Under the pieces are notes generated by a model. The model made no database searches. It was given only the letters and a program-made list of their open reading frames with translations, and was not told the origin of the DNA. A stretch of 64,000 bases of DNA, from contig NZ_JAXIVS010000002.1 of NCBI RefSeq assembly GCF_034259325.1, positions 558,001 to 622,000 of the forward strand, in the 5' to 3' direction. Below are positions 2,287 to 12,489 of this stretch, piece by piece. How positions within the stretch are numbered: the first letter of the stretch is position 1; the number at the start of each line of letters is the position of its first letter. This stretch comes from Hyalangium ruber. Lineage in GTDB: Bacteria > Myxococcota > Myxococcia > Myxococcales > Myxococcaceae. The position numbers and the translations under genes were made by a program.

Positions 2287-3216
2287 TCAACGCTCGACGT
2301 TCTCCCCGGTGCTGAGCGCCAGGTAGAGGCCCGCCGTCAGCAGGTAGGCCATCCCCGACGCGGGGATGGCGCCGACGCAGCAGGCGAGGACGCCGGCCAG
2401 AACGACCAGGCCCTGCACGAACATGACGCCGAAGATGGAGGGGCGCTCGCCTTGCGCGTAGGCGTAGCAGCGGCGCAGCAGCTCCATGGGCGATGGCGCG
2501 TCATCCCGCATGGCCATCTCTGGCTGGAGAAACACGAGCGGCAGCAAGAAGTAGATCAGCGGAATGAGGACCAGCACACCGGCGCCAATGGCGATGAAGG
2601 GCGCCGCCTCCGAGCCGACGAAGTAGATGATCCCGGCGACAATGCCCGCGATGGCTCCGATGGGGACGATGGAGATGAGGACCACGAGCAACGTGGTCAG
2701 CAGATAGGTCCACACCTTGTGGAACTGGCTGAACAGCCGCTCGATGTTCGCGCGTTGCCCCTGCAGTACTTCTATCAGCATCCGCATGAGGCCCAGCCCC
2801 AGCAGGCCCTGCACCACGGTCTGGACGATGGCCGCCGCGATGGAGAGGACGACGGTGAGCACCTGACTTTCCAGCAGGGTGCCGACGGCCGGGAGGAGCT
2901 GCGCCATCATCTGGACGACGAAGCTGATGCCTCCAAAGATGAGGACCGCCGCGGAGATCATCAGCCAGTCGCGCTTGAAGACCTCGAAGCAGTAGTTCCA
3001 CAGCGCGCTGAAGTTCCAGTTCTCCCGCGTCAGCGGGAAGGCCGACCCGGCCCCCATGCGCTGCTGGCAGGTGGGGCAGACGGACTGGGCGCCCTCCTGG
3101 GTACACTGCGCGCACATGAAGTTGCCACACCGGGTGCAAGTCCCCGCGGCCGGCTGATCCGGGTGCAGGGCGCAGTGCGCGCCGTAGCCGGTACCCCCAA
3201 AGTCCGTCTGCGCCAT
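2287..3216 (-). CDS. zinc-ribbon/B-box polytopic membrane protein
   Basis: 309 residues from the ATG at 3216; the frame stays open upstream, but the extension is Pro/Gly-rich without a conserved look. Residues 15-50 carry a cysteine/histidine array (C15, H18, C27, C30, C35, C38, C47, C50) resembling a B-box-type zinc-binding domain. The rest has about six hydrophobic segments separated by a basic loop, similar in look to the glycerophosphodiesterase membrane-domain/DUF975-type proteins common in myxobacteria. The zinc domain should face the cytoplasm. Function unknown. Confidence 0.7.
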   Translation of the reverse strand: MAQTDFGGTGYGAHCALHPDQPAAGTCTRCGNFMCAQCTQEGAQSVCPTCQQRMGAGSAFPLTRENWNFSALWNYCFEVFKRDWLMISAAVLIFGGISFVVQMMAQLLPAVGTLLESQVLTVVLSIAAAIVQTVVQGLLGLGLMRMLIEVLQGQRANIERLFSQFHKVWTYLLTTLLVVLISIVPIGAIAGIVAGIIYFVGSEAAPFIAIGAGVLVLIPLIYFLLPLVFLQPEMAMRDDAPSPMELLRRCYAYAQGERPSIFGVMFVQGLVVLAGVLACCVGAIPASGMAYLLTAGLYLALSTGENVER

Positions 3217-3410
3217 CGTCCCTCTCCTGGCTAAAGCCCCTATATCCCAGGGTTTGGAGCCCCCTCCAAGCAAGAGACCGCCCGTGTAGGCGCCCGCGGT
3301 ACACCCAGACCTGGGGACAGGCCCCCGGGGACTTGAATTTCCCCCCGATCTGCTCGTCTGCTCGGGTGTCATCAGCGGGCCGGAAGTTCCTGGCCTGGGA
3401 GAACCCTCAA

Positions 3411-4595
3411 ATGCCTCGCCTACTCGCACTGCTCGCGCCGTTGGCCCTGGTCGCAGGTACCGGCTGCGTCGTCACGCCGTACCACGGCCACACCCGGACC
3501 ACCTCCTATCGCACGGTCGAGGTCGTCCAGTACCACTATGCCGGTGCCCACCCCATTACCGGCGGGGGCGGTTGGTGCGTTGATGACTACGCCCACGTCC
3601 ACGACTACGCGCCGGAGCATCAGCACTACGTCCACACGAACAACGTGTACACGTACCGGGGCCCGCGGACAGTGTGGTACCTGGACTACCACCCGAACGA
3701 GTCGGGCGGGTACTGCAACCACAACGGCCGGCACTACCACGACTACTACCCGCGCCAGGGCAACGGCTGGACGTACGCGTGGGACCGCAGCCGCGAGGTC
3801 TACGTCTACAACACGCCCCGCGGTACGCATGGCGCCTCGCCCGCTCCGGGCTACTCCTCCTCGCGCCCGAACTACCCCGCGCCCAGCCAGCCGGCGCCTC
3901 CGCCGAACAACGGCGGTGGTTGGAACCGGCCTCCTCCGAGCGGCGTCGGCCACGGCTCTCCGTCGCGCCCGCCGGGTGGTGGCTGGGGCAACCCCTCGCC
4001 CCCGAGCGGTGGCGGCAGCTACCCGACGCCTCCTCCCCCGAGCGGCGGCGGCAACAACGGTGGCGGCTACAACGGCGGTAACGGCGGCGGCAACAACGGC
4101 GGTGGCTGGGGCAGCCCTCCTCCTGGCAACGGCAACGGCGGCGGCAACAACGGTGGCGGCAACAACGGCGGTGGCTACGGCGGCGGTAACGGCGGTGGCA
4201 ACAACGGCGGTGGTAACGGCGGCGGCAATGGCGGCGGCAACGGTGGTGGTAACAACGGCGGCGGCTACGGCGGTGGTAACGGCGGCGGCAACAACGGCGG
4301 CGGCAACGGTGGTGGCAACAACGGCGGCGGCAACGGCGGTGGCTGGGGCAACCCGGGTGGTGGCAACGGCAACGGGAACGGCAACGGCAACGGCGGCAAT
4401 GGGAATGGCAACGGGAACGGCAACGGCAACCACGGCGGTGGCTGGGGCAACCCGGGTAACGGTGGCGGCGGCGGCAACAACCCCGGCAACAGCAACGGCA
4501 ACAGCAACGGCAACGGCGGCCGGGGTGGTAGCTGGGGCGGCGGGAGCCGGGGCAAGTCGTCCTCCTCCTCGTCGGGTTCCAACAGCCGCTGGTAG
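3411..4595 (+). CDS. secreted Gly/Asn-rich protein, probable lipoprotein
   Basis: 394 residues from the ATG at 3411. A signal peptide (MPRLLALLAPLALVAGTGC) ends in a cysteine, but the lipobox is weak because Gly is at -3. Residues about 20-140 are rich in Tyr and His (repeated HDY, HYH and YHNY-like motifs), which could bind metal. From about residue 160 to the end the protein is low complexity: Pro/Ser-rich blocks, then GGGNNGGGN and GNGNGN repeats, and a C-terminal serine run. Two hairpins follow the gene. It is likely surface-exposed or part of the extracellular matrix; that is inferred from composition only. No family was recognised. Confidence 0.7.
   Translation: MPRLLALLAPLALVAGTGCVVTPYHGHTRTTSYRTVEVVQYHYAGAHPITGGGGWCVDDYAHVHDYAPEHQHYVHTNNVYTYRGPRTVWYLDYHPNESGGYCNHNGRHYHDYYPRQGNGWTYAWDRSREVYVYNTPRGTHGASPAPGYSSSRPNYPAPSQPAPPPNNGGGWNRPPPSGVGHGSPSRPPGGGWGNPSPPSGGGSYPTPPPPSGGGNNGGGYNGGNGGGNNGGGWGSPPPGNGNGGGNNGGGNNGGGYGGGNGGGNNGGGNGGGNGGGNGGGNNGGGYGGGNGGGNNGGGNGGGNNGGGNGGGWGNPGGGNGNGNGNGNGGNGNGNGNGNGNHGGGWGNPGNGGGGGNNPGNSNGNSNGNGGRGGSWGGGSRGKSSSSSSGSNSRW
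4035..4530. repeat. GGC/AAC short tandem repeat tract
   Basis: Degenerate 3- to 12-base units built from GGC, GGT and AAC codons encode the Gly/Asn tail of the preceding secreted protein. Units such as GGCGGCAACAAC recur many times. Such tracts can change length by slippage in multiples of three without breaking the frame. Confidence 0.85.
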
Positions 4596-4597
4596 TT

Positions 4598-4645
4598 GAC
4601 CGTCCGCAACGGGACGGTCGCTGGCGGGGTGGATTGCCACCCCGC
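4598..4645 (+). terminator. double hairpin after the Gly/Asn-rich protein gene
   Basis: Two perfect stems follow the stop codon. The first is GACCGTCC/GGACGGTC (4598-4605 with 4612-4619). The second is GCGGGGTGG/CCACCCCGC with an ATTG loop (4624-4632 with 4637-4645). They end 28 bases before the next start, so they could also lie in that gene's leader. Termination is the simplest reading. Confidence 0.6.
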
Positions 4646-4673
4646 TGGCGCGTGAGAATCTTGGCGGGCAGTC

Positions 4674-5531
4674 ATGAAGCAACCGTGCCTGCTCGCTTGC
4701 TGTGCCCTCCTCGGACTGAGCCTGACCGCCTGTGGCGGCGACTCCATGCCGGACCCGGGTACGCGCACCGAAGACGCCCAGACCGTCGATCTGGAGAGCC
4801 TCTTCATCACCGTGCGCGGTCGGGTGGACCTGCTCCCTGAAGCCGCGCGACTCCTGGCGGATCAGGGCCAGCCCCCGCCAACGCTCGGCGGTCTTCCCCT
4901 CTCCATCGAAGAGCCGTTGCGTGTGGGGGTGAACGATCCGGCCGCCACGTTTGGCACCGGCACGCTCGCCGAGGACGGTGGGTTCTCCGTCCGCGACGTT
5001 CCGGTGAAGGACATCCACCTGAGCCTCGCGGCCCGCTTCGCGCACGAGGGCTTCGTGCCGAGCTCCACCATCGTCTTCGACACGGCCTTCAGCGGCTCAC
5101 GGCCGCGCACCGACATCATCGACGCTCGCGCTTGGGCGCTGCCCTGGGCCTTCCATGACGCGCTCTCGGGCGCGGTGGGCGAGGAAGCCCTGAGGCTCCA
5201 GACCGAGGGCCGGGCGCGTACGCTCCTCGAGGCCGGCTTCCTGCTGGGCCGCGTGGTGGACGCCTCGGGCCAGCCCATCGCCGGCGTCCGCGTACGGATG
5301 GATCAGGGAGCGCTGTCCGACCGGCTCTACTACCCCTCCGAGGACCTGTCCCGCGTGGGGCAAGAGGGAACCAGCGCCAACGGGCTGTTCCTCTATGTCC
5401 ACTCGGGCGGGGACGCGGAGACGTTCCGCCTGAGCGTTCATGGCACGGAGGCGTACCTGTGGCGCAACGCGGGTGCCACGCCGGGGCTCGGCCTGGTGCT
5501 CACCCTCTACCCGGGGACCTACGCTCCCTGA
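4674..5531 (+). CDS. lipoprotein with carboxypeptidase-regulatory-like domain
   Basis: 285 residues with a clean lipoprotein signal (LSLTAC, cysteine 20). The mature part looks like a beta-sandwich protein. The segment LGRVVDASGQPIAGVRVRMD (about residues 190-210) is typical of carboxypeptidase-regulatory-like/transthyretin-type domains, which are found in many myxobacterial surface lipoproteins and are thought to bind partner proteins or glycans. It follows the Gly/Asn-rich secreted protein in the same direction, 78 bp apart but separated by two hairpins, so co-transcription is doubtful. No catalytic residues seen; function unknown. Confidence 0.7.
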   Translation: MKQPCLLACCALLGLSLTACGGDSMPDPGTRTEDAQTVDLESLFITVRGRVDLLPEAARLLADQGQPPPTLGGLPLSIEEPLRVGVNDPAATFGTGTLAEDGGFSVRDVPVKDIHLSLAARFAHEGFVPSSTIVFDTAFSGSRPRTDIIDARAWALPWAFHDALSGAVGEEALRLQTEGRARTLLEAGFLLGRVVDASGQPIAGVRVRMDQGALSDRLYYPSEDLSRVGQEGTSANGLFLYVHSGGDAETFRLSVHGTEAYLWRNAGATPGLGLVLTLYPGTYAP

Positions 5532-6699: not shown

Positions 6700-8298
6700 C
6701 TAGCGAACGCGGATGGCGTCGGCGATGACGTAGGAGCCCGCGCCCGTCCAGCGGCTCAGCTGCACCTTGTTCCAGCCGGCCGGGAAGCTCCAGGCGCCCA
6801 GCGTGTTCCAGGTGCCGCCGCCCGTCTGCTGGTTCACGTTCACCGTGGCCAGCTTCGTGCCCGCCGCGTTCCAGATGATGAACGGAGCCGTCGTGGAGCG
6901 GTCCGTGGCCGAGGTCCACCACGCGTCGATGGTCTTGGTCGCCGGGGCCGACAGGTAGAAGTAGAAGGTCGCCGGATCCGACACCGCCTCGGTGGGCGCC
7001 GCGTAGTAGCCCGAGCCGTAGTAGCCACCCACGTTCGTGGACGAGGTCCAGTTCGCGGAGACCTCGACGTAGCCCGCCGCCGTGTTGTTGTTGGCGTTGT
7101 TGCTGTCGATCACCAGGCCCGTGGTGGTCGTGCCGCAGAAGGAGTTGATCTTGCTGATGTAGGTCGACCACGGCCAGTTGGGACCCGGGTCCGTGCGGGT
7201 GGCCGGCTGCAGCCGCCCGTGCGCCACGATGTGGTAGCTGTCGCGCAGGATGCCCCGGTCACGCGAGATGTCGCACGAGAGCCGGGCCGAGGCGTCGATC
7301 TGCCCCGTGGGGAAGGACGTCTGGCTGGCGAAGCCAGCGTGCTCGATGCCCACCGAGAAGTTGTTCACCGACACGCCGTTGAGCCCGCAGTCCTTGCTGC
7401 CGTTGAGGCTGCAGTCATACGAGGCGCCGATGTGCCAGCCACGGTTGGCCTCGCCCACCAGCTGCGAGATCTCGCTACCGGTCTCGTTCACCACGTAGTG
7501 GGCGCTCACGCCCGAGGCGGAGTTGGCCAGCCAGCTCCAGCAGCTCGAGTAGCTGCCTTCGCAGGTGTGGATGATGATCATCGAGATGTCGGTGCCCGTG
7601 GGGCGCGCGTTGTAGTTGGGCGAGGGGCGCCAGATGGACGCCGCGTAGTCGGGGCCCGAGGCCATGGCGCGCGCGGCGGGCAGCTCGAACTTCGCCTCCA
7701 CCTGCGCGGGCATGATGGACGCCAGCACCTGGCCATCCAGACCCTCGGCCACCACGCCATTGCGCAGCGTGGCGTACACTTCCTTGTGGATGTACTCGGC
7801 CTGCGCCTCGGCGAGGGTGATGCCGCTGAAGCCGGCCACCGCGGGGGCCCAGGCGCCCACGTCCGCGCGGTCCAGCTTCAGCTCGTCCGCGTGCGCCGAC
7901 AGCAGCGCCGCGCCAGCGCGGATGTTGGCCCGCGCGTCGCTCTTGGCCTGCGCCACCGACACCCCGGCGAGCGCAGCACCCCGCTCCAGCCGCTCACCGC
8001 GCAGCGCCATCACGCCGAAGGCGGCCGGCATGCCGTCGAACTCCTCCTCACCGCTCACCATCTGCCAACGCGTCTCCGTGAAGGAGATGGCCTTGAGCAG
8101 GTCGGCCGGCACGTTGAAGTCGCGCGCGGCCTCGTCGAACAGCGGATCCAGCTGGCCTTCGGTGCCACGGCCAGCGGCGTCCTTGGCCGCATCGGCGATG
8201 GCGGAGGGGTTCTGCGACTCCGGGCTCTGCTGGGGATCGCATGCAGCCAGGGAAAGGGCCGCGGCAGCGGTCGCGAGCGCGTTGCGCAACGTGTACAT
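6700..8298 (-). CDS. N-acetylmuramoyl-L-alanine amidase, multidomain lipoprotein
   Basis: 532 residues with a good lipobox (LSLAAC). Residues about 50-190 resemble the helical lytic-transglycosylase-like domain ([18 protein letters not shown], with the Glu of the SLT fold), although the catalytic set cannot be confirmed. Residues about 230-390 are an Amidase_2 (PGRP-like) zinc amidase: [27 protein letters not shown] and [16 protein letters not shown] give the zinc-binding histidines. The C-terminal 140 residues (DSNNANN, then [16 protein letters not shown], ending VIADAIRVR) match the golvesin/xanthan-lyase-type CBD seen in myxobacterial secreted enzymes. It should cut the stem peptide from peptidoglycan at the outer membrane or in prey. 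First gene of an operon with the TolB-like gene. Confidence 0.88.
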
Positions 8299-9276: not shown

Positions 9277-9495
9277 TCACCCCTGGCTGTTGCCCTCCTC
9301 GCCCAACGCCATCGTGGTGACGATGCCTGGGGTGGAACCGCCCCCCCCCTCCTCCCCCACGGCCAGCGTCGTCACCGGCCGGGGCTTGCCCTTGCCTGCC
9401 TGCTCCCCGGGAATCGACGGCGCCGCGGGCTTGCCGCCGATCCAATCGGGCAGCTCGTAGTCAATAAAGGACGCGCCCTTGTGGTGTCGGGTCAT
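9277..9495 (-). CDS. graspetide (omega-ester peptide) precursor, plesiocin-like
   Basis: 72 residues from the ATG at 9495, with a strong AGGAGG site 5 bases upstream. The N-terminal half (residues 1-40, including FIDYELPDWIGG) looks like a leader. The C-terminal part holds two near-identical cores, VTTLAVGEEG (41-50) and VTTMALGEEG (59-68), joined by a GGGSTPGI linker. Both fit the TTxxxxEE pattern of plesiocin-type (group 2) graspetides, in which an ATP-grasp ligase joins Thr side-chain hydroxyls to Glu side chains to make hairpin-like macrocycles. The gene lies back to back with an ATP-grasp ligase gene, the usual context. Core and family are read from the sequence; the product itself is inference. 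Confidence 0.83.
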   Translation of the reverse strand: MTRHHKGASFIDYELPDWIGGKPAAPSIPGEQAGKGKPRPVTTLAVGEEGGGGSTPGIVTTMALGEEGNSQG

Positions 9496-9612
9496 GTTGC
9501 CTCCTGGAAGCGCGGTGGGTGAGAGGGCTTGTCGCCTACCCACCCTTACGTGTGAAGGTGGGTCTTGCTTGCACGGGGGGGAAGTCTCCGCCTCGGGGGG
9601 GAGTGAAGCACG
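9496..9612. promoter_or_regulatory. divergent promoter region of the graspetide locus
   Basis: The 117 bases between the precursor start (9495) and the ligase start (9613) must hold both promoters. Ribosome-binding sites are visible on each side: AGGAGG for the precursor and GGGGAG for the ligase. G-tracts occur at 9577-9601. No -10/-35 could be assigned with confidence. Confidence 0.5.
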
Positions 9613-10566
9613 ATGCGAATCGGTATCTTCGGCGATGGCGCGGACCCACAGTGCGCCGCGGTGGCCCGTGAGGCGAAGGCGCTCGGCGTGGACACCCTGT
9701 ACGTGGACAGTGGCTCGCTGGAGAAGGGCCGGCCGCTCTCCATGCTCGACGGGCGCACCTTCTACCTGGGTGAATCCGTGGACGATGTGCGGGGCTTCTA
9801 CCTGCGCTCCATTCCCGCGCCCTACGTCTCGGCGATGAAGAAGGATGAGTCGCTGGTGCTCTACGAGGACTGGTTCACCACCTTCACCCAGACCCGTGAG
9901 CGGGCGGCGTACTTCGTCGCGTGGCTGCTGCAGCTGGCGCACCGGGGCGCCACGCTGGTCAACGGCCCGCACGCGGCGAGCGTGATGCAGTACAAGCCCT
10001 ACCAGCTCCACGCGCTGCGCAGCCTGGGGGCGAAGGTGCCGCGCACGCTCATCTCGAATGATCCGGAGGCCATCCGCGCCTTCCATGCCGAGGTGAAGGA
10101 CGTCATCTACAAGCCCATCCTGGGCGGCGCCATCACACGGGTGCTGGATGCCGAGGCGCTGGAGCGGCTGGACGCGGTGACGGCCTCGCCCGTCATCTTC
10201 CAGGAGCGCGCGCCGGGGGACGACCTCCGGGTGATGTTGGTGGGAGACGAGATCGTCTCCTGCGTGGCCATCGTGACGCCGGAGCAGCACCTGGACTTCA
10301 GGGATGACCCTGTCTACAGCAGCGGAGAGGCCGTATACCGCGAGGTGGTGCTGCCCGAGCCGGTGCAGCGCTTCTGCCGCTCGGCGGCGAAGGCGTGCGG
10401 GCTGACGTTCGCGGGCATCGACATCAAGCAGCGGGGCAACGACTTCGTGTTCCTGGAGCTCAACAGCTCGCCCATCTACATGGACGTGGAGCTGAAGCTG
10501 GGCCACCCCATCAGCCGGGCCATCGCGCGCCGCGTGGTGGAGGGCGCGCGCGCCGCCATGCGCTAG
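9613..10566 (+). CDS. ATP-grasp peptide ligase (graspetide synthetase)
   Basis: 317 residues resembling the RimK-like ligases that modify graspetide precursors (MvdD/MvdC, PsnB type). Visible: the KPYQLHALRSLGAKVPRT segment followed by SNDP, which is characteristic of this subfamily, the ATP-binding IYKPILGGA loop, IFQER for adenine contact, and the C-terminal metal motif FLELNSSPIYMD. It should use ATP to activate Glu side chains of the neighbouring precursor and form ester bonds to Thr. It overlaps nothing, but its stop codon abuts that of kup. No transporter or protease gene is adjacent, so export would rely on genes elsewhere. Confidence 0.85.
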   Translation: MRIGIFGDGADPQCAAVAREAKALGVDTLYVDSGSLEKGRPLSMLDGRTFYLGESVDDVRGFYLRSIPAPYVSAMKKDESLVLYEDWFTTFTQTRERAAYFVAWLLQLAHRGATLVNGPHAASVMQYKPYQLHALRSLGAKVPRTLISNDPEAIRAFHAEVKDVIYKPILGGAITRVLDAEALERLDAVTASPVIFQERAPGDDLRVMLVGDEIVSCVAIVTPEQHLDFRDDPVYSSGEAVYREVVLPEPVQRFCRSAAKACGLTFAGIDIKQRGNDFVFLELNSSPIYMDVELKLGHPISRAIARRVVEGARAAMR

Positions 10567-12489
10567 CTACAACTCCACCTGCGTGCCCAGCTCCACCACG
10601 CGGTTGGGCGGAATCCGGAAGAACGCCGTGGCGCTGCGTGCGTTGCGGCTCATCCACGAGAACAGCGCCTCGCGCCACATCGCCATCCCCGGCTTCTTCG
10701 ACGGAATCAGCGTCTCCCGTCCCAGGAAGAACGAGGTGCTCATCAACTGGAACTGCAACCCCTTCTCCCGCCCTCGCTTGAGGATGTCCGGGATGCTCGG
10801 GTTCTCCATGAAGCCGTAGCGCGCAATCACTCGCACGAAGCCCCGCTCCAGCGGCTGGACCTCCACCCGCTCCTCCGGCAGCACGTGCGGCACGTCCTCC
10901 GAGAGAATCGTCAGCAGCACCACCTGCTCGTGCAGCACCTTGTTGTGCTTCAGGTTGTGCAACAGCGCCGGCGGCGAGCCCTCCGGGTTGCCCGTCATGA
11001 ACACCGCCGTGCCCGGCACCCGCAACGGCGCGTGCTCCCCGTCGAAGCTCGACATCAGGTCCTTCAGGTCCATGCTCGCCTCGCGCAGCTTGGCCCCGAG
11101 AATCTCCCGGCCCCGCTTCCACGTCGTCATCAGCGTGAAGAGCACCACCGCCAACGCCAGCGGGAACCAGCCCCCTTCCGGAATCTTCACCGCGTTGGCG
11201 CTGAAGAACGCCAGCTCCACCCCCAGGAACAGCCCCGCCACCGGCAGCGCCACCGCCCGGCTCACCTCCCACCGCTCCCGCGCGACGATGTAGGCCATGC
11301 ACGTCGTCATCAGCATCGCCGTCGCCACCGCGATGCCGTACGCCCCCGCCAGCGCGCTCGAGGAGCGGAACCCCAACACCAGCGCCACCACCCCCACCAG
11401 GAGGATGAGGTTGAGCCCCGGCAGGTAGATCTGCCCCTTCTCCTCCGCCGAGGTATGCACCACCTCCATGCGCGGGCAGTAGCCCAGCTGCATCGCCTGC
11501 CGCGTATTCGAGAACGCCCCCGAGATGACCGCCTGCGAGGCGATGGCCGCCGCCCCCGTGCCCAGAATCACCATCGGGTAGATCGCCCAGTCAGGCGCCA
11601 GCAGGTAGAACGGGTTGCGCGCCGCCGAAGGGTCCCTCAACAGCAGCACCCCCTGCCCCAAGTAGTTGAGCATCAGCGACGGCAGCACCAGCCCGAACCA
11701 AGCCCACCGGATGGGCCCTCGGCCGAAGTGCCCCATGTCCGTGTAGAGCGCCTCTCCGCCCGTCACCACCAGGAACACCGCCCCCAGCACCAGGAAGCCG
11801 TGCGTCCCGTTGCGCATGAAGAACGAGGCGCCATGCACCGGTGACAGCGACACCAGCACCCCGGGGTTGTGTACCAGCTCCTTCACCCCCAGCACCGCCA
11901 GCGCGATGAACCACACGCACATGAAGGGCCCGAACACGTTGCCGATGCCGCCCGTGCCGTGCCGCTGCACCAGGAACAACCCCAGCAGGATGACCAACGC
12001 GATGGGCAGGAGGTAGGGCTCGAAGATGGGCGTGGCCACGCTCAGGCCCTCCACCGCGCTCAGCACCGAGATGGCCGGGGTGATGATGCCGTCTCCGTAC
12101 AACAGCGCCGCGCCGAAGATGCCCATGAGCAACAGCTTGGCCCGCGCCGCGTTCGGCGGCGCGCTGCCCCGGTGCCGCTGCGACACCAGCGCCATCAACG
12201 CCAGGATTCCGCCCTCGCCCCGGTTGTCCGCCCGCAGCACGAAGGCCAGGTACTTCACCGACACGGTGACGATGAGCGACCAGAAGATGAGCGAGAGCAC
12301 CCCCAGCACATTCTCCGGCGACGGCGTGATTCCGTGCGGCCCGCTGAAGCACTCGCGCAGCGCGTACAGCGGGCTGGTGCCGATGTCGCCGTAGACGACG
12401 CCGATCGCCCCCATGGCCAACAGCGCCGTGCGCTTCAGGGGCTCCGGCGCCTCGGCCTGAGGCCCCGGTGCTTCCGTGGTCTGGTTCAC
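10567..12489 (-). CDS. kup: Kup-family potassium uptake protein
   Basis: 640 residues, the usual Kup/HAK/KT length. The N-terminal signature GVVYGDIGTSPLYALRE, then about twelve transmembrane segments (including NRGEGGILALMALVS and YGDGIITPAISVLSA) and a hydrophilic C-terminal domain from about residue 455 all match. It imports K+ with protons across the inner membrane. It is monocistronic and convergent with the ligase gene; its upstream side faces a histidine kinase gene across about 200 bp. Confidence 0.95.
   Translation of the reverse strand: MNQTTEAPGPQAEAPEPLKRTALLAMGAIGVVYGDIGTSPLYALRECFSGPHGITPSPENVLGVLSLIFWSLIVTVSVKYLAFVLRADNRGEGGILALMALVSQRHRGSAPPNAARAKLLLMGIFGAALLYGDGIITPAISVLSAVEGLSVATPIFEPYLLPIALVILLGLFLVQRHGTGGIGNVFGPFMCVWFIALAVLGVKELVHNPGVLVSLSPVHGASFFMRNGTHGFLVLGAVFLVVTGGEALYTDMGHFGRGPIRWAWFGLVLPSLMLNYLGQGVLLLRDPSAARNPFYLLAPDWAIYPMVILGTGAAAIASQAVISGAFSNTRQAMQLGYCPRMEVVHTSAEEKGQIYLPGLNLILLVGVVALVLGFRSSSALAGAYGIAVATAMLMTTCMAYIVARERWEVSRAVALPVAGLFLGVELAFFSANAVKIPEGGWFPLALAVVLFTLMTTWKRGREILGAKLREASMDLKDLMSSFDGEHAPLRVPGTAVFMTGNPEGSPPALLHNLKHNKVLHEQVVLLTILSEDVPHVLPEERVEVQPLERGFVRVIARYGFMENPSIPDILKRGREKGLQFQLMSTSFFLGRETLIPSKKPGMAMWREALFSWMSRNARSATAFFRIPPNRVVELGTQVEL

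Follow-up and report, generated by a model that had tools for sequence, protein, structure and literature searches.

In Hyalangium ruber, a short open reading frame lies next to the gene of an ATP-grasp ligase, which raises the question of whether the two make up a graspetide locus and, if so, of what kind. The window, i.e. the whole stretch of 64,000 nucleotides that was analysed, belongs to a genome assembly of 10.77 Mb in 43 contigs. We consider it very probable that the pair is a two-gene cassette for a group-2-type graspetide with a plesiocin-type core. The precursor gene (9277..9495, minus strand) begins with an ATG, which follows an AGGAGG by four bases, and encodes a peptide of 72 aa (MTRHHKGASFIDYELPDWIGGKPAAPSIPGEQAGKGKPRPVTTLAVGEEGGGGSTPGIVTTMALGEEGNSQG). 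Its two repeats, VTTLAVGEEG and VTTMALGEEG, have their paired threonines at positions 42-43 and 60-61, so that core 1 (TTLAVGEE, residues 42-49; 9349..9372, minus strand) and core 2 (TTMALGEE, residues 60-67; 9295..9318, minus strand) are spaced by 18 residues. Both fit TTxxxxEE, which we take to be the defining motif of group 2 (the plesiocin group). The ligase, an ATP-grasp graspetide synthetase (macrocyclase) of 317 aa by similarity, fold, tree and orthologue alignment, is encoded at 9613..10566 on the plus strand. As the two start codons face apart across 117 bases, the pair is divergent. The shared intergenic region (9496..9612) contains both ribosome-binding sites. An alignment of five genomes shows a conserved block within it, at about 9548-9587, which may hold the divergent promoters, and a scan of the region for sigma-70 promoters and terminators found no sigma-70-type consensus.

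Could such a precursor arise by chance? Across the six frames of the window, TTxxxxEE occurs three times, two of these being no more than 40 aa apart, and the longer TTxAxGEEG occurs twice, forming one pair. Sixty third-order Markov sequences of the window held on average 0.83 TTxxxxEE motifs, no pair and no TTxAxGEEG, and the absence of core pairs from all of these simulated windows ruled out a chance open reading frame as the precursor. Besides, when 96 genomes of the same family (Myxococcaceae, judging by named relatives) were searched at a threshold of E <= 1e-90, an orthologous ligase was present in 24, the window's included, across nine of 26 genera and at 25 loci, and a precursor of the same kind, with cores, lay within 1.5 kb of the ligase at 23 of these 25 loci, again counting the window. 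The gene pair is therefore not a product of chance. At one of the two remaining loci (L144), no precursor was found within 1.5 kb of the ligase, which counts against our reading, and the precursor of the other (L145) cannot be judged because the locus begins at a contig end. The precursor is divergent from the ligase at 22 of the 23 loci. The exception is L142 (locus L081, 8001-10972), where a 17-core precursor is flanked by two ligases, whose identity to that of the window is 59% and 33%, and sits downstream of the orthologous one and back to back with the second, 33% identical one.

Carriers among 30 loci include Hyalangium versicolor, Archangium lansinium, A. violaceum, Pyxidicoccus caerfyrddinensis and a Myxococcus, and the nearest ligases are 86-88% identical to that of the window. 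Such a pair is also found in a Cyanobium, a Synechococcaceae and a Sericytochromatia MAG, and in the Sericytochromatia MAG the two genes share a strand; within the order of the Cyanobium, two of 299 genomes carry it, both of them previously known carriers. In a Cyanobium MAG (L079, 6994-7914, minus strand), a two-core module continues in frame into an RTX-like, calcium-binding repeat tail that might hint at type I secretion, yet we do not build upon this fusion because the tail scores under the Pfam cut-off (E 7e-4) and the 38 codons before the leader contain no usual start codon. A small-ORF search for substrates beside further ligases (L050, L058, L059, L061, L149, L144 and L068) returned nothing convincing.

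The initial annotation had described the locus as minimal, with no transporter and no second ligase nearby. Minimality is borne out by the comparison of 14 loci, none of which shows a third gene in a fixed place beside the pair. Open reading frames that recur at three or more of the 14 loci, leaving aside the pair and the frames antisense to it, comprise a histidine-kinase group (four loci) and a protein-kinase group (three loci), all at differing places, and a further group, at L074, L078 and L081, that matches nothing in Pfam. Since no other gene holds a fixed place, we regard the pair as a two-gene cassette in varied surroundings. The statement on transporters has to be amended, given that a Kup potassium transporter gene (10567-12489) directly follows the ligase gene; Kup was nevertheless rejected as a part of the system, together with a phosphoesterase, as among 15 loci, several of which span 1.5 kb only or end early, they lie beside the pair only at H. 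versicolor (L063) and on a MAG contig (L067). Likewise, there is a second ligase gene at 414-1430, 8.2 kb away from the first, but it is an ordinary RimK (rimK_fam 220.9 bits, over the cut-off, with a Rimk_N domain). The minus strand at 6700-8298 encodes an N-acetylmuramoyl-L-alanine amidase with a golvesin C-terminal domain.

The ligase of the pair is of the graspetide kind, as had been proposed. Among NCBIfam models, TIGR04187 (111 bits), MvdC (76) and MvdD (65) outscore rimK_fam (48), with all four under their cut-offs, and the Pfam match is to RimK (42.8 bits, over the cut-off). By sequence, its best match in the PDB is PsnB (7drm; E 4.3e-42, 147 bits), followed by PruB of Streptomyces coelicolor (9bou, 71 bits), with RimK at about 28 bits. 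An AlphaFold2 model derived from 15 orthologues (poor at residues 71-85, mean pLDDT 80.9) retrieved PsnB as each of the top 15 Foldseek chains (TM 0.73-0.78 on the query), and these were followed by MdnC, AMdnB, a Chryseobacterium RiPP ligase and PruB, and then RimK. Identity to PsnB is about 30-41%, i.e. 30-33% according to Foldseek and 41% in a genome search that covered residues 34-268 of the PsnB fragment. ATP-grasp residues including K128-P129, G171-G172 and L281-E-L-N284 are invariant across the 15 orthologues. An ordinary RimK was ruled out as the identity of this ligase by the NCBIfam ranking, the PDB scores and Foldseek.

No family model in Pfam or NCBIfam matched the precursor, which counts against a graspetide, and a sequence search of the PDB with it returned chance chains only. 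A comparison partner was reached through the precursors of PsnB orthologues, at weak E values of 0.3 and 1.1: the substrate in the PsnB crystal (chain 7drm_E), which the PDB entry itself names PsnA2, is PsnA2(14-38), LFIEDLGKVTGGKGGPYTTLAIGEE, and ends C-terminally in TTLAIGEE. Core 1 of the window precursor, TTLAVGEE, differs from this in one of eight residues. The precursor is thus linked to a ligase and has both a leader and repeated donor and acceptor residues. By analogy with LFIEDLG in the PsnA2 fragment of the crystal, the leader motif FIDYELP (residues 10-16; 9448..9468, minus strand) is the likely recognition site of the ligase, and its general form F-x-x-[YF]-[EA]-[LVTM]-P recurs in 20 of 23 family precursors, the exceptions being L131, L136 and L138. 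Counting against the parallel, 32 residues separate the leader Phe from the first core Thr in the window precursor, as opposed to 16 in the PsnA2 piece.

How close, then, is the locus to that of plesiocin from Plesiocystis pacifica? The same family contains PsnB orthologues at 27 places, 52-55% identical to PsnB. At 19 of the 26 such loci examined, a precursor with the leader LF[IV]x[DGE][LW] and one core was seen, and at the other seven our script found none. These orthologues share the TTxxxxEE core with the window lineage and co-occur with it in some genomes (e.g. G007, G027, G061 and G069), but their leader and their single core set them apart; the window precursor reads SFIDYELP instead. 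In the ligase tree, the window lineage forms one group (27 rows, 99/91) and the PsnB lineage another (17 rows, 97/89), with other ligases falling between them, and the window ligase does not nest with PsnB and its 52-55% identical relatives. A joint clade of both lineages was rejected (p-AU 0.0067; 0.0187 in the first tree), which counts against a plesiocin-type ligase, yet no longer so once the neighbour L050 was added (p-AU 0.104), and a grouping of RimK with the window lineage was not rejected (p-AU 0.255). Because the tree has long deep branches and does not fix the position of RimK, we claim two lineages and leave their order of branching aside. The window ligase is no PsnB orthologue; it represents a lineage of its own, whose precursors have another leader (FIxYELP). 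The initial annotation's label "plesiocin-like" holds for the core, and its expectation that the ligase would cluster with PsnB and MvdD types rather than with RimK was confirmed by similarity and left undecided by the tree alone. Of its remaining points, the 72-aa precursor with two VTTxAxGEEG repeats was found with exact coordinates, as was the back-to-back layout, and the proposed search against known precursors gave no match in Pfam or NCBIfam but a core that equals that of PsnA2 save for one residue.

The number of cores ranges from one to 18 within the ligase lineage, and the two cores of the window are one state within this range. Five of the 23 family loci have single-core precursors and five have two cores, namely the window, L132 (with the precursor of H. 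versicolor), L128, L134 and L135, although under a stricter core pattern the last three count one. At the other 13 loci there are five or more cores (at least 5, at least 6, at least 8, 10, 11, 12, 12, 14, 14, 15, 15, 17 and 18), the counts of L129, L130 and L133 being lower bounds owing to contig ends. Between low (one or two) and higher core number, at least two changes occurred on the family ligase tree of 23 rows, and three when three rows from outside the family join it. The long precursors reach 311 aa. Linkers of the KPGKP or KPP type connect their cores, which recur mostly every 15-22 residues, and every 11-20 in the precursor with 18 cores.

The 182 real cores, drawn from 26 loci, give the consensus [VMA]TT[LMKQ]A[VL]GEEGG; the figure excludes one spurious core of an original 183, taken from a wrong open reading frame of L077, and the true L077 precursor (two cores, one of them worn; identical to L046) was left out. 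Thr rather than Ser is used at core position 1 in 179 and at position 2 in 175 of the 182 cores, with Ala at position 4 in 173 and Gly at position 6 in 175; counts of Glu are no evidence, since the search pattern itself called for Thr/Ser and for the final Glu, and allowed five letters at position 6. Residue 3 varies chiefly among L, M, K and Q, being L and M in the window precursor, and is tied to residue 5: Lys or Arg goes with Leu in 34 cores as against Val in six, and Leu or Met with Val in 88 as against Leu in 20 (Fisher test on the 148 cores with these residues, whose p value is too small because related repeats were treated as independent). In the 15-core Pyxidicoccus precursor, residue 3 runs L-K-L-K-L-K-L-L-L-K-L-K-M-M-L. 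Some relatives have worn cores, such as TTMSLREE and TTMGLAEE.

By analogy with plesiocin, the ligase would bind the N-terminal leader around FIDYELP and, using ATP, would turn core Glu side chains into acyl phosphates. Attack by the Thr hydroxyls would then close two nested Thr-Glu esters per core, with the predicted connectivity T42-E49 and T43-E48 in core 1 and T60-E67 and T61-E66 in core 2, so that four dehydrations (-72 Da) would give two bicyclic hairpins on one chain. The calculated monoisotopic mass of the untagged peptide, Met1 included, would thereby drop from 7253.59 to 7181.55, and that of its C-terminal tryptic fragment (37 aa, starting at residue 36) from 3510.73 to 3438.68. Enzymes encoded elsewhere would remove the leader and export the product. 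In work on plesiocin, core residue 3 reportedly sets protease specificity, and with Leu and Met at this place the product would probably inhibit chymotrypsin-like or elastase-like serine proteases; that it is a serine protease inhibitor at all we assume with moderate confidence. Plesiocin is described as a serine protease inhibitor of the hairpin type with two esters per repeat (PMC12291112, PMC13097080). On the other hand, a group-2 member from Glaciecola underwent one dehydration only in E. coli (PMC9576775), which counts against our reading.

Across the lineage, the switching of residue 3 between Leu/Met and Lys suggests mixed-specificity inhibitors. We tentatively propose, while thinking it rather doubtful, that these loci form a natural series of multivalent inhibitors, in which one ligase family staples from one to at least 18 hairpins on a chain and in which Leu/Met cores (TTLAVGEE) and Lys cores (TTKALGEE) alternate within one molecule, with the window pair as a short, hydrophobic-only member. 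If true, one product would block chymotrypsin-like and trypsin-like proteases together. Valency (1, 2 or 10-18 predicted hairpins) and residue 3 vary across the lineage while ligase and core stay constant and, as the potency of plesiocin is reported to rise with the number of cyclised units (PMC13097080), this series would allow tests of valency, processivity and specificity with natural partners. If it can process as many as 18 cores, such a ligase could also be useful for peptide stapling.

The same chemistry might serve another purpose, i.e. stapled surface, matrix or signal polypeptides, in which the long forms would be stapled fibres and the two-core form a short relative. Precursor lengths of up to 311 aa and the periods of the cores fit such a role, as does the Cyanobium relative that seems to enter an RTX-like tail (below the cut-off), but a core nearly identical to that of plesiocin and a residue 3 that varies among L, M, K and Q, as the specificity residue of an inhibitor might, speak for an inhibitor, and we regard the structural role as the less likely, though a serious, alternative. 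A decayed locus, weakened or inactivated by the loss of cores, would be in line with the repeated changes between low and higher core number and with the worn cores of some relatives. Both genes are open and have ribosome-binding sites, however, the nearest ligases are 86-88% identical and both window cores are regular, which makes decay improbable.

Far less credible still is an ordinary RimK-family ligase that has some other protein target and merely neighbours a chance small ORF. The Pfam RimK match and the non-rejected grouping of RimK with the window lineage would point that way, yet they are outweighed by the PDB scores (147 bits for PsnB against 28 for RimK), by same-core precursors beside 23 of 25 orthologues and by the lack of core pairs in 60 simulated windows. 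Of the graspetide cassette, class, core and ligase type are already known.

With plesiocin (PsnA2/PsnB), it has in common a single ATP-grasp ligase, the fold of this ligase and tandem TTxxxxEE cores; it differs in its leader (FIDYELP versus LFIEDLG), its separate, about 30-41% identical ligase, and its two cores (1-18 in the lineage) as against four in plesiocin. A microviridin locus (MvdC/MvdD) likewise relies on ATP-grasp side-chain macrocyclisation, but has two ligases, a PFFARLL leader and a TLKYPSDSDE core. One locus of this type exists in the window's own genome (L158, G000:C12:232500-240500; 2941-5453, minus strand), with MvdD-like (423 bits) and MvdC-like (388) ligases under the cut-offs of 475 and 425 and a 61-aa peptide (5012-5194, minus strand) containing PFFARLL and TLKYPSDSDED. 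A further MvdC/MvdD-like stretch of about 183 bits (L159, G000:C11:174500-182000; 3445-4107, plus strand) had no recognisable precursor beside it. In the tree, the ligases of the microviridin locus group with TgmB, apart from the window lineage. Our literature search, whose scope did not extend to the mining papers of 2020 and 2021, found no paper on the window ligase lineage; antiSMASH "microviridin" clusters are already listed as conserved in Archangium and Cystobacter (PMC12766979) and may be other loci. Corallotide (group 15, Corallococcus) also derives from a myxobacterial multi-repeat precursor but has KxxxD isopeptide repeats and an oxygenase partner (PMC13097080), as opposed to the Thr-Glu cores of the window, where no partner was found. 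Its KxxxD repeats (PMC13097080) are called to mind by a 98-aa open reading frame (L060, 2483-2776, minus strand; G078) with five KIRADD repeats and KPGKP-type linkers near a 31% identical ligase.
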